Shown in pieces: positions 7,868 to 15,422 of a DNA stretch of 47,803 nt. Location of the stretch: positions 1 through 47,803 of the forward strand of contig SDNX01000008.1 in assembly GCA_004524545.1 (NCBI GenBank), given 5' to 3'. The DNA is from Promethearchaeota archaeon (GTDB taxonomy: Archaea; Asgardarchaeota; Lokiarchaeia; Sigyniarchaeales; Promethearchaeaceae). The stretch's first letter is position 1. Each line of letters opens with the position of its first letter. The notes beneath the pieces were generated by a model, which searched no databases, was not told the DNA's origin, and saw only the letters and a list, made by a program, of their open reading frames with translations. A program made the position numbers and the translations under genes.

Positions 7868-9055
7868 TTATTTTTTTCTATCTTTATAGACATCATTAAT
7901 ACCTAAATGGGGATACAACAAATTTTTTCGACCCACTTTCTTTGTTTCTATCATATTGATTTCTTTTAATTTCTCAATATGGTATTTTACCGTTTTATGG
8001 TCTAAATCCAACTTGTTTGCGATTTCACTCCCATATGTTCCCGGATATTCTTCGATCATGTTTAGGATTTGTAAGGTCGTATCACTTTTTGCTAGTTTAA
8101 TATCAATGTTCGACATGGGGTTGTAGTCATATAACGGGAAATACACCAGATATTGACCAACGTTTTTTTTACCGATTATATGATATGTTTCGAGCACATC
8201 TAGATGCCAAACCAAATTGCCTGGACTTAGGTCTGTCTCCCTTAATAGTTCATTAAAGTGAATTCCAGGGCTATCTAAAATAAAGTCAATAATTTTAGAC
8301 CGATTTTCATTTTCAAGCACATCTTCAATGGATAGTGTGTATTTTGCTGGCTGTGTCCTAATTCGATTCCTAATGAATTCCCGGTATTCGGTTTTGCTCA
8401 TTAATATCGTAAACGAAATGATGACTATTCCCACAATCGAACCAACAACGATGATCCAAGTGTAACTAATCGAAGGTGCGAATACGGATAAATATACTTC
8501 CGTCGGTAAAGAAACGATGGTAGTGTTCACACTATCATCAGATTCAGTTGTTTCGATCAATTCCCATTCTGTTGAACTATATAATGCCCATTTATTACCT
8601 TCTCCTACAGACTGAGAATTATTTTTTGTTACCGAAAATTGAATCGCATCAATAGAAACGTTTGTTTGGATACGGATGAAAGATCCCCAAAGATTACGAT
8701 AGCGATTTCTTGCTTGTTTAACTTGTTGTTGTTGAAAATGCTCAGCATAGGGTTCAGTATCAATAGTTAATGCAGCTGATTCGGAATTGTTAATACTAAT
8801 TGATATCTGTCGATTCTGCAATTGAGCGTTGAATCGTAAGTCTACGTCCAAGTTAACATTTGACATGATATTTAGATGATTATCACCAAAAAAAGAATAA
8901 TTCACCCAACCCTCCCCCCCTGCTACCCTATCTTGTTTCATATAGCCATTTACTTGAACAGGTCTTCCAGCGAATACAGTTTGGATGTTACTAAATAGTA
9001 TTATGAGAATTACGAAAAATATACTGGTTTTCAAGAGTGTTTTCTGGGGTTTCAA
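7868..9055 (-). CDS. membrane-tethered transcription regulator with two winged-helix domains (module B)
   Basis: 395 residues: signal peptide (LLKTSIFFVILIILFSNIQTVFAG), ectodomain (~30-210), one TM helix (YTWIIVVGSIVGIVIISFTIL), then two winged helices with motifs almost identical to the 4102 protein: PGIHFNELLRETDLSPGN, LVWHLDVLETYHIIGKK, YGSEIANKLDLDHKTVKYH. The ectodomain differs from module A but resembles the exported protein at 9116 (for example a shared KWALY/HWAYF...EW block). The TTG start is uncertain: a minus-strand TATA (9068-9078) lies only ~18 nt upstream, so TTG at 9034 is an alternative that still gives a complete signal peptide. Convergent with the small His protein and same strand as 9116-9790. 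Confidence 0.8.
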   Translation of the reverse strand: MKPQKTLLKTSIFFVILIILFSNIQTVFAGRPVQVNGYMKQDRVAGGEGWVNYSFFGDNHLNIMSNVNLDVDLRFNAQLQNRQISISINNSESAALTIDTEPYAEHFQQQQVKQARNRYRNLWGSFIRIQTNVSIDAIQFSVTKNNSQSVGEGNKWALYSSTEWELIETTESDDSVNTTIVSLPTEVYLSVFAPSISYTWIIVVGSIVGIVIISFTILMSKTEYREFIRNRIRTQPAKYTLSIEDVLENENRSKIIDFILDSPGIHFNELLRETDLSPGNLVWHLDVLETYHIIGKKNVGQYLVYFPLYDYNPMSNIDIKLAKSDTTLQILNMIEEYPGTYGSEIANKLDLDHKTVKYHIEKLKEINMIETKKVGRKNLLYPHLGINDVYKDRKK

Positions 9056-10449: not shown

Positions 10450-12114
10450 ATGGAAGATTACTGGTATATCGTCATTGGAATGGTTGCTTTACTTGTAATT
10501 TTTTGTTTGTGTATTGGGTTTTCTGGAGGGAAATGGAATTATGCAGCCTATATTAAAGAGAAAAATGAGAGAGTTCAACGTAAACGCTGGAATAAATATG
10601 TAAAATTCCTTGATCCTGTAAAGGAAACTGAACTACTCAATATAATTAAGCTAAGTTCAGATGCAGACTTTGAAGCATTTCTAAAGGAAATCCAACCCCT
10701 TCTTACCAAAAAATACAACCCTTACAATCTTAATGAACAAACTTTACTCAAGCGGACGATATATAATGTTATAAACAGATATACCACACAATTCAAATAT
10801 GATCGTGTGAAAAAAATTGAAGCTATCCTACCTATGTTGAAAAGAGTATTTCTAGGACCTAGATTAACAAACCAAGTCTACAGTAAAAAGACACTGAAAC
10901 GTAGATTTAAATTTCCGTTAAAATCGGGAGTAGAAATTCCAAAATTAGATACCATAATCGATGTGGCATTCTTCTTCAATATTTCAGTCAATAAGATCTT
11001 GGGGCTTTGCTATATGCAGGAGAAAAATCCAGGAGCATATTACGTCAAAAGGGAAATTATCTATGACCAAATGGGAGAAAAAGGAATCATACTTCATCAA
11101 AAAGATCCTGCAATGGTGCAATTAGATTCAAGTTACGCAATTGCTGAACCAAATATATTGAAAAAAAAGAAGTCTAATCAAAACGAAGGAAAAAATTCAG
11201 AAGACATTCAAGAGAAATTAGAGGAAATTAAACCGTCTTTTAAGGAATACTCAAGTCCATTTTATAAAAGAAAAATGTTAACTAAACCAGATGGACGCAA
11301 AAGATTAATAGCTTGCCCGGTAAGCTATTTGAAGAAATATCAAAGAAAGATTTTGGGTGATATTCTTGAAAAAGTAGCCCTTCCGACTAATTGCACAGGA
11401 TTTGTGAAAAATAGGTCAATAATATCAAATGCAGCAAATCATGTAGGTTCCCAAACTCTAGTCAAAATAGATTTAAAGAATTTTTTTAATTCCATGAAAT
11501 TTTACCATACATTTGAGGTTTTCCGAGGATTTGGATATAATAGACCAGTATCTGGAATATTAGCCTGTATTTGTACTGATTGGTACACCAAAGGTGGCAG
11601 GTATGTTCCTCAAGGAGCCCCAAGCAGCCCCATGATCGGAAATTTATATGCATTGCATCTCGACAAGCGATTAGAAGGATTGTGGACTAAAGCAGGATTT
11701 GTATACAGTAGGTATGCAGATGATTTGGCATTTTCAAGTTCCGATCCAAAAGTTAGAGTCCGAGGTTTGATTTTCGCATCCTACCAATTCATAAAAGATG
11801 AAAAATTGAGCCCAAATCCAGCTAAGACAAAAGTTCTTCGTAAGCAACACAAAAAGAAAGTGACGGGAATTACTGTAAATGAGAAAATCAATATAGATAG
11901 AAGGTGGATGAATGCGTTTCGAGGAGAATTACATCGCTATTCAAAATTCGGATTACCATCAGATGGAGTTCAGAGATCCAAAATATTTTCCCAATTAAAG
12001 GGAAAAATGTCTTTTTTGCAGATGATCGATCAAAATAAAGCCCAGAAATATGATCTATATTTTGAAAAAATAAGAACAGAATATGCGAAATTACTTGGAA
12101 ATTCCAGTCAATAA
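10450..12114 (+). CDS. retron-type reverse transcriptase with N-terminal transmembrane helix
   Basis: 554 residues. Residues ~4-26 are one hydrophobic helix (YWYIVIGMVALLVIFCLCIG), followed by a basic helical region. Next is an unassigned N-terminal domain (~50-270) and then the RT core: FYKRKMLTKPDGRKRLI and YLKKYQRKIL; NAANH at 327-331 (the NAxxH motif of retron RTs); KIDLKNFF with catalytic D341; VPQGAPSSP at ~387; YADD at 422-425 with both catalytic Asp; VTGITVN at 471 (the VTG region of retron RTs). There is no endonuclease, maturase or integrase domain, so it is not a group II intron or retrotransposon ORF. Retron RTs normally sit 3' of their msr-msd RNA; here the RNA-like units follow the gene. 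The membrane anchor and long N-terminal extension are unusual. Confidence 0.9.
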   Translation: MEDYWYIVIGMVALLVIFCLCIGFSGGKWNYAAYIKEKNERVQRKRWNKYVKFLDPVKETELLNIIKLSSDADFEAFLKEIQPLLTKKYNPYNLNEQTLLKRTIYNVINRYTTQFKYDRVKKIEAILPMLKRVFLGPRLTNQVYSKKTLKRRFKFPLKSGVEIPKLDTIIDVAFFFNISVNKILGLCYMQEKNPGAYYVKREIIYDQMGEKGIILHQKDPAMVQLDSSYAIAEPNILKKKKSNQNEGKNSEDIQEKLEEIKPSFKEYSSPFYKRKMLTKPDGRKRLIACPVSYLKKYQRKILGDILEKVALPTNCTGFVKNRSIISNAANHVGSQTLVKIDLKNFFNSMKFYHTFEVFRGFGYNRPVSGILACICTDWYTKGGRYVPQGAPSSPMIGNLYALHLDKRLEGLWTKAGFVYSRYADDLAFSSSDPKVRVRGLIFASYQFIKDEKLSPNPAKTKVLRKQHKKKVTGITVNEKINIDRRWMNAFRGELHRYSKFGLPSDGVQRSKIFSQLKGKMSFLQMIDQNKAQKYDLYFEKIRTEYAKLLGNSSQ

Positions 12115-12120
12115 AAATAA

Positions 12121-12279
12121 AGTCCCTGCTATCGAATCTATATTTTCCATAGGAAAATTTCATTGGTGACCTCTTCACCAATGAAATATTGTTAAATATA
12201 TACTTCGTAATCCACCACGATGGTTCATCGCAGCTCGTAAGACACCAGGGATATGTAAATTGAGGTAAATTTTCTTTTT
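12121..12279 (+). ncRNA. RT-associated structured RNA, unit 1
   Basis: About 159 nt, beginning 6 nt after the RT stop. Structure readable from the sequence: closing stem GTCCCTG (12122-12128) with CAGGGAT (12246-12252, one G-U pair); TTTTCC-ATA-GGAAAA hairpin (12144-12158 region); 12-bp perfect stem 12157-12168 with 12176-12187 and a 7-nt loop ACCTCTT; CGATG-GTT-CATCG hairpin near 12218; then TTTTCTTTTT, a typical archaeal terminator. End-pairing repeats around internal hairpins next to a retron-type RT recall the a1/a2-bounded msr-msd RNA, but the unit is downstream and short. Retron RNA is an inference; a structured RNA is well supported by covariation with unit 2. Confidence 0.75.
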
Positions 12280-12350
12280 AATACCATTTATCACCCCATA
12301 ATTAAACTGATAATGGAACCATAAGACCAAAATCATGATAAAAAATAAAA

Positions 12351-12509
12351 TGTCCCTGCTATCAAATCTATATTTTCCATAGGAAATCATGGATTAAGCT
12401 CTCATCTTAATCCATGAATTGTTAAATACGAGCTTCGTAGTCCACCACGATGGTTCATCGCAGCTCTAAAGACGCCAGGGACATGTAAATTGATGTAAAT
12501 TTTCTTTTT
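12351..12509 (+). ncRNA. RT-associated structured RNA, unit 2
   Basis: Same layout as unit 1: closing stem TGTCCCTG (12351-12358) with CAGGGACA (12476-12483), here 8 bp with G-C where unit 1 has G-U; TTTCC-ATA-GGAAA; the variable 12-bp stem TCATGGATTAAG (12387-12398) with CTTAATCCATGA (12406-12417) and loop CTCTCAT; ACGA-GCT-TCGT; CGATG-GTT-CATCG; TTTTCTTTTT end. The variable stem shares no more identity with unit 1 than chance yet keeps length, position and perfect pairing. No separate TATA box of good quality was seen before this unit, so both may come from one transcript. Confidence 0.75.
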
Positions 12510-12596
12510 AATTATTATTAATATCTCCTAATTAAACACACGAACGAGAATAAGAAAGAATATTAAATGTGTAACCCAAGTTCTAAAAGAGGAAAT

Positions 12597-14051
12597 ATGC
12601 GTGATCTAACTCAAAAAGCCTTAGAAGTATGTAGTAGTGAAGGAGCAAGCTATGCCGATATTCGCATAATTACTACCACGGATGAGGATATAACGATTAA
12701 GCGTGGAAATATTGATGTTCTGAATCTTAGTACTATAAAAGGATTCGGAATTCGCACTTTGGCAAATGGAGGATTAGGTTTTGCGGGATCCTATCTAGTA
12801 ACTGTTCAAGAAATCGAACGCGTTGCAAAACTTGCAGTTAGGATTGCAAAAGCTTCTGGTTCAACGCGAAAAACTCCCATACGCTTCGTGGAGGAGAAAG
12901 CTGTAGAAGATTCTTATGTTACACCGATCCAAAAAGATCCTTTTTCAATTCCTACAGAAGAAAAAATTGCAGTGTTAATGGAAGCAGATAAGAGGATGAG
13001 GACAGCTTCTGATTTGGTAAGAATGTCCCAAGCTGATTATCGAGGATTCAGGGAGAATAAAGTGTTCGCAAGTTCAGAAGGAGCCTATATTACTCAGCAA
13101 ATCACATTTTGTGGAGGAGGAATTTCAGCTACAGTTGCGGAAGCTGGAAAGCAGCCTCAAACAAGATCAGTACCAGCATCATTTCGAGGAGATTTCTCAA
13201 CTCAAGGATATGAATATTTTGAGGGGTTGAATTTAATTGAAAAAACGGAAGGAGCTGTGAAGGAAGCAGTTGCATTATTAGATGCTCCTCAATGCCCATC
13301 AGGAAAAATGACTCTTCTTTTAGACGGTACTCAATTGATGTTGCAAGTTCACGAGAGTTGCGGACACCCGACTGAATTAGATCGTGTGTTAGGAACGGAA
13401 GCTGCATATGCGGGAACAAGTTTTATGACTCCTGATTTGCTTGGAAACCTAAGATATGGTTCCGAACAAGTTAATATGACAGCAGATTCGACCCTTCCAG
13501 GAGGATTAGGTACTTTCGGATATGATGATGAAGGAGTTTCGGCTAGAAGGACTGAACTAGTAAAGAACGGATTATTCGTGGGATACCAAAGTTCCAGAGA
13601 AACAGCAGCGTTGTTAGGATTAGAACGTAGTTCAGCAGGAATGCGTGCAGACAATGCTCAACACTTACCTCTCATTCGAATGGTCAACGTTAGTTTAGAA
13701 CCTTTGGATTGGACTCGAGAAGAAATCATTGCTGAGACTAAAAAAGGGATTCTTATGTCAACTAATAAGAGTTGGAGTATAGATGATAAGCGTCTTAATT
13801 TTCAATTCGGCACAGAGATTGCTTGGGAGATTGTAGATGGTTCTATCGGTCAAATCTTCAAGAATCCGACGTACGCAGGGATCACACCTGAATTCTGGGG
13901 CGGAATGGATGCTCATTCTAAGGACGATTGGAAATTAAGAGGGACTCCTAACTGTGGAAAAGGACAACCAGGACAAGTTATGTATACTGGGCATGGAGCA
14001 GGTACAGCACGGTTCCAAAAAATTGATGTAGGTATCACGGGGGGAAAATAA
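12597..14051 (+). CDS. tldD: TldD family metalloprotease
   Basis: 484 residues from ATG 12597, chosen because AGAGGA precedes it and because TldD proteins begin just before the ASYADIR block. The zinc-site motif HESCGH is at ~252-257, followed by PTELDRVLGTEAAYAG. TldD/TldE form a hexameric protease that degrades unfolded peptides and matures modified peptides (microcins, also linked with CcdA degradation) in bacteria; the archaeal pair is common with unclear substrate. TldD carries the catalytic metal site. The partner pmbA/tldE starts immediately after the stop, so the two form one translationally linked operon. The window holds no obvious precursor peptide. Confidence 0.92.
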   Translation: MRDLTQKALEVCSSEGASYADIRIITTTDEDITIKRGNIDVLNLSTIKGFGIRTLANGGLGFAGSYLVTVQEIERVAKLAVRIAKASGSTRKTPIRFVEEKAVEDSYVTPIQKDPFSIPTEEKIAVLMEADKRMRTASDLVRMSQADYRGFRENKVFASSEGAYITQQITFCGGGISATVAEAGKQPQTRSVPASFRGDFSTQGYEYFEGLNLIEKTEGAVKEAVALLDAPQCPSGKMTLLLDGTQLMLQVHESCGHPTELDRVLGTEAAYAGTSFMTPDLLGNLRYGSEQVNMTADSTLPGGLGTFGYDDEGVSARRTELVKNGLFVGYQSSRETAALLGLERSSAGMRADNAQHLPLIRMVNVSLEPLDWTREEIIAETKKGILMSTNKSWSIDDKRLNFQFGTEIAWEIVDGSIGQIFKNPTYAGITPEFWGGMDAHSKDDWKLRGTPNCGKGQPGQVMYTGHGAGTARFQKIDVGITGGK

Positions 14052-15422
14052 ATGGATTTCAATAAAGAATTGTTACTCGAAAAGGCAAAATTCGTACTTA
14101 AAACTGCAGAAAAACTCGGAGCAACTCAAACCGAAGTAACTGTTGGACTTAGAAATACAGCACTCACTCGATTAGCCAACAGCATTATTGATCAAAATGT
14201 AGCAGAACGTCATGCAACAATCCAAACTATCGCTTATATTGGTAAAAAAAAAGGATCCACATTCGTTGAGGTTTTGGACAATGAACAAATTGCGAAAGCA
14301 GTTGAAAATGCTGTTAAAATAGCCAAAATATCGCAAGAAGATAATGATTTTATATCTTTACCTACTCCAAAGCCATACTCAACCATTCCAACAAATGAAC
14401 TCGTATCCAAAAACACTATGAACACGACTCCGGAACAACGAGCGGAATCAGCCAAACTCTGTATTGATACAGCTCATTCGATTGATGATCGGATTAAAGC
14501 AGTAGCTGGAGCAATCTCTCATGGTTTAGCTGAACGTGTGATTATGAATTCATTAGGGGTAGAAGCGTATGATGTTAGTACTTATAGCAATGTAAATTTA
14601 ACGATACTTGCTGAAGACACAAAAGAGCAAGTCGCTGGTTGGTACGCAGATAATAATGTAGATTTCACGAAACTGCACATTAAAAAAATTGCTGAAATTG
14701 CCACAAAGAAAGCTGTAGATGGATTTGGAATGCAATTAATCGAACCTGGAAACTATGAGGTTGTCTTGGAACCCGCTGCTCTAAGTGGTTTATTGATGTA
14801 TATCGCATATTTTGGATTCAGTGCAGTAATGTATCAAGAATATGTCAGTTTCCTACGAGATAAAATCGGCACAAAACTTTTTTCAGAGAAATTCAATCTC
14901 TGGGATGATGCCCTAGATAAAAGGTCGACTTTCAGATCATTTTTTGATGACGAAGGAACACCTAAATCCAAAATAGATTTAGTGCAAGATGGTGTTGTGA
15001 AGAATTTAGCATACGATTCTATCACGGCAGGCAAGGATGGGGTTCAGAGTACTGGGCATCACAATAAACAAGAAGGTCAATCCTTCCCATTCCCTACAAA
15101 TATGTTCGTGGGTGAAGGGAGTTCCAATATCGAAGAAATGATTGCAGAAACAAAAGATGGCTTATTGATTACCCATTTCCATTATATGAATGCAGTTAGC
15201 CCAACTGAGGGAATTTTTACAGCTCTAACTCGGGATGGAACGTGGAAGATTGAAAATGGAGAAATTAAATATCCTGTCCGAACACTTCGATTTACCGATG
15301 CAGTTTCTAGGTTCTTAGGTGAAATAGATTTAATTGGAAAATATCCAGAAATTAATTCTCAAGAATTCAAGGTACCCTCCATGAAACTACCATCGTTCAC
15401 TATATCCAGCATCCAAAAATAA
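14052..15422 (+). CDS. pmbA: PmbA/TldE family protein, TldD partner
   Basis: 456 residues. Start ATG abuts the tldD stop; CGGGGGG just upstream serves as ribosome binding site. Family features: GATQTEVTVG near the N-terminus, Y-x-F-SAVMYQEYVSFLRDKIG in the middle, TGHHNKQEGQSFPFPTN and EGIFTALTRDGTW toward the end. The HExxxH zinc motif is absent, as usual for TldE, which serves as the non-catalytic half of the TldD/TldE complex. Length is normal for the family. Cytoplasmic; no signal peptide. A T-rich stretch after the stop ends the operon. Confidence 0.9.
   Translation: MDFNKELLLEKAKFVLKTAEKLGATQTEVTVGLRNTALTRLANSIIDQNVAERHATIQTIAYIGKKKGSTFVEVLDNEQIAKAVENAVKIAKISQEDNDFISLPTPKPYSTIPTNELVSKNTMNTTPEQRAESAKLCIDTAHSIDDRIKAVAGAISHGLAERVIMNSLGVEAYDVSTYSNVNLTILAEDTKEQVAGWYADNNVDFTKLHIKKIAEIATKKAVDGFGMQLIEPGNYEVVLEPAALSGLLMYIAYFGFSAVMYQEYVSFLRDKIGTKLFSEKFNLWDDALDKRSTFRSFFDDEGTPKSKIDLVQDGVVKNLAYDSITAGKDGVQSTGHHNKQEGQSFPFPTNMFVGEGSSNIEEMIAETKDGLLITHFHYMNAVSPTEGIFTALTRDGTWKIENGEIKYPVRTLRFTDAVSRFLGEIDLIGKYPEINSQEFKVPSMKLPSFTISSIQK

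Follow-up and report, generated by a model that had tools for sequence, protein, structure and literature searches.

A Lokiarchaeial retron with a predicted membrane helix and two RNA units behind its reverse transcriptase, probably representing a new branch

Retrons have been described as tripartite toxin-antitoxin systems acting against phages (PMC11249213, in the part available), and their standard cassette places the RNA upstream of the reverse transcriptase (RT) gene, on the RT strand and within one transcript (PMC6868368, in the part available). In Nannocystis exedens, msr/msd-like or partial msDNA (multicopy single-stranded DNA) repeats were read as possible retrotransposition (Lampson and Rice 1997; Lampson 2002, both as given in that part of PMC6868368), while defence RTs of the Drt2 kind combine an RT with an adjoining non-coding RNA (ncRNA; PMC12039810, in the part available). 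Here we report on a retron RT gene and the two structured RNA units behind it in a 47,803-nucleotide stretch (positions 1-47,803 of contig SDNX01000008.1, assembly GCA_004524545.1; hereafter the window) of a Promethearchaeota archaeon (Lokiarchaeia; Sigyniarchaeales; Promethearchaeaceae), and compare them with the type XIII retrons (RT_XIII, SWIM_XIII, WGR_XIII/HEAT-ARM_XIII), which are represented in Asgard archaea by the loci L028-L031. We consider it probable that the window carries a retron from a new branch, one that either descends from type XIII or is its sister, in Lokiarchaeia near Prometheoarchaeum, with a membrane-anchored RT, a convergent array of two templates and no SWIM partner found. 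An earlier reading of the bare sequence (the original prediction) had suggested a multi-copy, RNA-templated complementary DNA (cDNA) system in Asgard archaea, and this is still the best reading, given tandem canonical arrays in relatives, matches to an independent RNA model and genomic copies of the msd.

The search set comprised 227 genomes of the Asgard phylum (denoted G; loci are denoted L), eight of which belong to the window's family, and an RT was scored as present at E up to 1e-25. Three RNA models were used: R1 was built from seven window-family units (two each from the window and G006, one each from G001, G004 and G007), R2 from bacterial msr sequences, and R3 from eight canonical Asgard type XIII units alone (L028, L030 and L031), with no window-family unit. 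As retron criteria we used, for the RT, NAxxH in region X and VTG opening region Y (PMC6868368, in the part available) and, for the RNA, complementary a1 and a2 ends of ~8-30 bases flanking msr and msd.

The reverse transcriptase and its clade

The RT gene (10450..12114, plus strand, stop codon included) encodes 554 residues, and its translation contains both retron motifs, NAANH in region X (11428..11442) and VTG at the start of region Y (11860..11868), together with the catalytic YADD (11713..11724). Its sole Pfam match is RVT_1 (E 1.2e-24). Among 49 PADLOC families RT_XIII ranks first (1.3e-86, 289.5 bits), the match being confined to residues 270-545 (the L028 RT scores 541.5 bits), and the top NCBIfam model is the retron St85 RT with 192.7 bits, which is under its cut-off of 235. 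The closest solved structure, with the clade profile as query, is the retron Ec86 RT (3.5e-55). By motifs and profiles the window RT is a retron RT, and the NAxxH, YADD and VTG motifs of the original prediction are borne out by the translation. A group II intron RT (TIGR04416, 56.6 bits against a cut-off of 300) and a Drt2 defence RT (39.4 bits against 390) were rejected, the distinction from group II introns coming from the profiles since group II RTs are missing from the tree described next.

An RT match was obtained in 16 of the 227 genomes. Window-type RTs occur in six, all in the window's family, and are 45-50% identical to that of the window. In a tree of 95 retron-type RTs these six form one clade (SH-aLRT 100, stem length 1.02) outside an 80-row group (support 90) containing the bacterial rows; the deepest forks of this tree are weak, and it was computed exclusive of group II, diversity-generating retroelement and named retron references. 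The clade RTs align to type XIII RTs from residue 133 onward (hhalign E 5.2e-70), and residues ~30-132 of the window RT (10537..10845, plus strand) form a helical stretch, unaligned with type XIII RTs, in an AlphaFold model of low confidence (mean pLDDT 49) from which only the N-terminal helices were taken.

Ahead of this stretch lies a predicted transmembrane helix (residues 7-25; 10468..10524, plus strand), where the top 19-residue hydropathy is 2.88; in the model a helix spans residues 2-25. N-terminal hydropathy is 2.24-3.17 in the five complete clade members and at most 1.49 among 89 other RTs, with the sixth member truncated at a contig end and the start codons of other rows set crudely. 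The helix already suggested by the original prediction has held up as a predicted hydrophobic helix, and the RT may accordingly be located at the membrane. Acidic residues precede it and basic residues come after, which suggests that the RT lies on the cytoplasmic side. Pfam candidates for the N-terminal part were rejected, all being under cut-off (NEPRO_N at E 0.0045 and 0.01 in two of five proteins, the rest weaker).

The RT is linked to the RNA units. R1 matched in five of the 227 genomes, each time adjoining the RT, with the unit shortly after the RT stop in G001, G004, G006 (two units) and G007; counting the window genome, five of the six clade members have a unit beside the RT. The covariance-model search across Asgard genomes and the proposal that the units are RNA partners of the RT thus both came out in favour of the original prediction, and whole window-family units apart from an RT were not found among the 227 genomes. 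Against this stands G002, where no recognisable unit was found beside the RT, which weakens the proposed partnership without refuting it. As regards viruses, the RT alignment gave 26 pattern matches on viral contigs and no confirmed relative; the unit pattern matched two contigs, which we take as chance because R1 found nothing there at E up to 10.

The SWIM_XIII partner is present in L028-L031 (E 1e-156 to 1e-180), and WGR_XIII matched in both loci tested, L030 and L031. In the eight window-family genomes, which are 74-93% complete, SWIM_XIII was not found, and for this reason the window retron is not filed as type XIII. The missing partner, together with neighbour genes that differ between the window, G001 and G007, could also mean that the retron is decaying, its effector lost and its defence gone, so that RT and RNA are remnants or serve a household role. 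Since the catalytic motifs and the N-terminal helix are retained in all five complete clade members and the RNA stems are preserved by changes on both sides, we regard such decay as possible yet doubtful.

The RNA units and their strand

Two units follow the RT gene, and both are given here as minus-strand RNAs. Unit 1, a predicted msr-msd RNA (12123..12251), has a1 at 12246-12251, an extra G at 12245 and a2 at 12123-12128; it contains a conserved hairpin with a 3-nt loop (12214-12234) and a predicted msd, i.e. cDNA template (12130..12199), with a short (12143-12157) and a long variable hairpin (12157-12187). Unit 2, likewise a predicted msr-msd RNA (12350..12484), has a1 at 12476-12484, the extra G at 12475, a2 at 12350-12358, the conserved hairpin at 12444-12464 and a predicted msd (12360..12429) with the long variable hairpin at 12387-12417. 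The msd limits of both units were transferred from a genomic copy in G001. The units are 82% identical across 178 aligned bases, and, folded on the plus strand, each is more stable than all of its 200 dinucleotide shuffles (z -2.99 and -4.68; 0/200 as good in each). The two window units, and likewise the two of G006, differ mainly in the msd stem, where pairing is largely kept. With unit 1 as query, the two units are the only matches in their own 2.5-Mb assembly (E up to 0.001), and no Rfam family attained its gathering score in the window (relaxing the limit to E 5 added one meaningless match to a human long non-coding RNA family).

Complementary a1/a2 ends, as expected of a retron RNA, are present: they form 7-11 pairs in five of the seven window-family units. 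For the L025b unit the script chose another helix, its a1/a2 letters pairing with one G-U, while the closing stem of unit 1 has only 6 pairs, which is under the 8-30 range and counts against its reading as a retron RNA.

Three Lokiarchaeial type XIII loci carry tandem canonical msr-msd units immediately after the RT gene and on its strand: three units each in L028 (12065-12774) and L030 (8196-8901), and two in L031 (10442-10905). In L029 the sole unit found sits 3.3 kb behind the RT. Array copies diverge mainly in the msd stem with pairing largely kept. Among bacterial relatives, 37 of 78 loci gave a match (E up to 0.01) to a conserved msr, CCTTGCAAYC followed by a hairpin of 8 pairs and a 3-nt loop; 12 of the 37 were used to build the profile. 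The match is upstream of the RT in 36 and downstream in L056 (partial, E 1.7e-4). Two tandem msr copies upstream of the RT were observed in the bacterial loci L065, L105, L113 and L115.

The original prediction described two structured units ending in poly-T, the first of them 6 nt behind the stop codon, which implies the RT strand. Two real units do lie close behind the stop, the closing stem of unit 1 beginning 8 bases past it; the plus-strand T-runs (~12275-12285 and 12505-12515) are not at unit ends and stand ~20 bases past the closing stem. We correct the strand: the msr-msd RNAs are most likely encoded opposite the RT, so that the units would converge on the RT gene and not end in plus-strand poly-T. 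Helix pairing, a pyrimidine tract, the extra G, full-length R3 matches and the genomic msd copies described below argue for this. Specifically, across three helices (162 cells) standard pairs make up 94.4% on the opposite and 80.9% on the RT strand, the helices having been picked on the opposite-strand fold, which tempers this comparison, and RNAalifold gave -25.2 kcal/mol opposite vs -18.2 kcal/mol on the RT strand. On the minus strand a pyrimidine-rich tract directly follows the closing stem: the 20 bases past a2 hold a mean of 16.4 pyrimidines on the opposite strand, 12.1 on the RT strand and 15.0 in canonical units (seven units each), with the opposite strand ahead in all seven window-family units. 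The extra G on the a1 side is present in 7/7 window-family and 8/8 canonical Asgard units, and by this likeness it may serve as the priming residue. Moreover, R3 matched all seven units full-length on the opposite strand (21.8, 18.1, 16.5, 16.0, 13.1, 9.5 and 4.6 bits); five of these matches reach E 0.01 or better, and the two lowest have E 0.08 and 1.2.

Several observations weigh against the opposite strand. R3 also matched four of the seven units on the RT strand, all from one genus (21.2, 14.3, 9.7 and 7.5 bits, two of them at E up to 0.01), in a register of 67-71 nt that leaves out the msd. In their first bases after a1 the units look more like canonical msr when read on the RT strand (mean z of 1.81 and 2.24, vs 0.87 and -0.44 on the other), one hairpin contains U-G pairs only when read that way, and the other Asgard arrays found sit on the RT strand. 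R2 scored 8.6 bits on the RT and 6.8 on the opposite strand, neither being significant, and a promoter test gave no significance on either strand, for which reason a TATA-like box spotted by eye before a1 on the opposite strand was not used. Alternatively, the RNA of the same retron could be made on the RT strand, by transcription that continues from the RT gene into the units, and the conserved hairpin would then lie in the 3' portion of each unit. That arrangement agrees with how the other arrays are laid out, with the similarity of the 5' end to canonical msr, with the partial R3 matches in one genus and with the loop letters of the conserved hairpin. It is opposed by the pairing, the pyrimidine tract, the extra G and the full-length R3 matches, and by the msd copies of G001 and G006, which would adjoin the RT-strand a1 and not a2, the wrong end for retron cDNA; we consider it unlikely. 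A permuted arrangement on the RT strand, with msd ahead of msr, was dropped after the R3 matches and the genomic copies.

Genomic copies of the msd and other observations

Positions are counted along the opposite-strand RNA. G001 contains, on another contig, an exact 71-base copy of positions 64-134 (100%, E 8.3e-31), a2 starting at 135. In G006 there is a 79-82% copy of 66-147, a2 starting at 148 (the alignment obtained with the G007 unit extends to 151 across a mismatch); it lies ~45 bases ahead of the start of a gene that resembles aIF1A. G007 has two shorter pieces, 94-140 (E 5.4e-7) and 110-137 (E 8e-5), and in the window genome a single piece of unit 2, 25 bases long, was found (52-76, E 4e-6); with unit 1 as query no further piece was found in the window genome below E 0.001, nor any dispersed copy in G004 with the G007 unit. 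The conserved hairpin core and paired a1/a2 are absent from all window-family pieces. In G015, which carries the type XIII array L031, 36 partial msd copies (L140-L146 and L157-L184) were found besides its two units, on many contigs (E up to 1e-4). Of these, 35 fall inside positions 43-179 (the msr hairpin ending at 39, a2 starting at 179), an edge pattern never reached by random placement in 20,000 trials. The copy number needs checking because G015 is a draft (7.8 Mb, 810 contigs) with 8% contamination.

Pieces of the stretch copied by a retron RT are therefore scattered through several of the genomes. Of the window-family pieces, the two longest stop where reverse transcription is predicted to begin, which supports the opposite strand and suggests indirectly that cDNA is, or formerly was, made from the msd. 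The dispersed pieces might instead be assembly mixtures or unrelated repeats, as the draft state and contamination of G015 and the lack of dispersed pieces in G082 would allow; this seems improbable to us, since the flanks are unrelated and the msd limits are respected in 35 of the 36 G015 pieces and in the G001 and G006 copies. That the units are a duplicated regulatory element or terminator of the RT gene, as their place close behind the stop codon and a second G006 copy that seems to contain a duplicate of the 3' end of the RT gene (upstream stretches compared) might suggest, is very unlikely in view of the full-length match to canonical msr-msd RNAs, the stems that vary with pairing kept and the msd copies elsewhere in the genomes.

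The 47-base G007 piece (83%, E 5.4e-7; L191:1471-1517, contig G007:C173) is an intron-like insert inside a tRNA-Phe(GAA) gene: ARAGORN called no tRNA by default, in intron mode it called tRNA-Phe with a 54-base intron, and with the flanks joined it called tRNA-Phe at many join points. R3 matched msr-msd-like RNAs in 12 of the 227 genomes, 8 of them lacking an RT match, and 16 stretches around such matches (7 from G015; also L147, L148-L149, L150, L151-L152, L153 and L154), many on short contigs, contained no retron RT. In L027 (G002:C793, behind 4688) there is another retron-like RT in a fused frame of 1020 residues, followed by repeated structured elements around TCTGATGTATCCATCAGA. L035, L036 and L037 have retron-like RTs from another Asgard family, and there the RT gene overlaps or adjoins a convergent open frame of 461-496 residues. 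Neighbours of the window retron are a winged-helix regulator with an HVO_0163-type domain (7868-9055, minus strand) and two TldD/PmbA metallopeptidase genes (12567-15422, plus strand). In G007 a large SNF2 helicase (L024:7212-10928) lies ~1.2 kb from the RT, its top PADLOC matches being defence helicases of the BrxHI/DrmD type.

A possible mechanism and comparison with known retrons

In the retron that we favour, the two minus-strand RNA genes would be transcribed toward the RT gene and each RNA would fold via its a1/a2 ends. The RT would bind the conserved 3-nt-loop hairpin next to a1, prime on the extra G that ends a1 and copy the msd from the base adjoining a2 into a hairpin cDNA of ~70-85 nt, the two units giving cDNAs with different stems. 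The transmembrane helix would tether the RT, and with it the complex of cDNA, RNA and protein, to the membrane, where viral disturbance of the complex may release an effector that it otherwise restrains; the difference in stem between the two templates could allow broader sensing or provide redundancy. An antiviral role would be in keeping with other retrons. As no gene next to the RT was recognisable as an effector, that part would fall to the RT's own membrane segment or to an unlinked gene, and either choice is a guess. Quite tentatively, we picture a self-contained membrane-tethered retron in which the N-terminal segment of the RT is the effector, restrained by two or more different hairpin cDNAs from a diversified array transcribed toward the RT, and in which these cDNAs, like those of an Asgard type XIII array, are captured into the chromosome and so supply Lokiarchaeia with new genomic sequence, including the tRNA-Phe intron-like insert.

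If right, retrons would gain a membrane location, a diversified template array and an opposite-strand layout, and such a retron would sit in the closest archaeal relatives of eukaryotes. Through the genomic msd copies, the points at which reverse transcription begins and ends can be read from nature, and the idea that retron cDNA changes genomes becomes open to testing. The available part of PMC11249213 describes no Asgard retron, the word retron is absent from the main text of an Asgard defence-system survey (PMC11291487), and our literature search, partial in coverage and in the texts available, met no description of such a retron; an earlier mention is possible.

Compared with known systems, the window RT shares with Drt2 defence RTs a neighbouring ncRNA, its score on the Drt2 profile being low. 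The partial msDNA-type sequences of Nannocystis exedens have their counterpart in the msd pieces, with the difference that the former are in a bacterium, whereas here they occur in archaea and have edges at the msd limits. The standard cassette layout is departed from, the window units being downstream and most likely on the other strand; other Asgard retrons also deviate from it. Retron-Eco1 (Ec86), whose RT is the closest solved structure, has NAxxH and VTG in common with the window RT, and we know of no membrane helix in it. The type XIII retrons are like the window RT from residue 133 on, their msr-msd model matches the window RNA and three of their Asgard loci have tandem units behind the RT; unlike them, the window retron has an N-terminal hydrophobic helix, units that are probably on the opposite strand and a closed unit of ~129-135 bases vs 187-195. 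The system is thus of a known kind, a retron, set apart by its separate clade, its predicted membrane helix, its probable opposite-strand layout and its missing SWIM partner.
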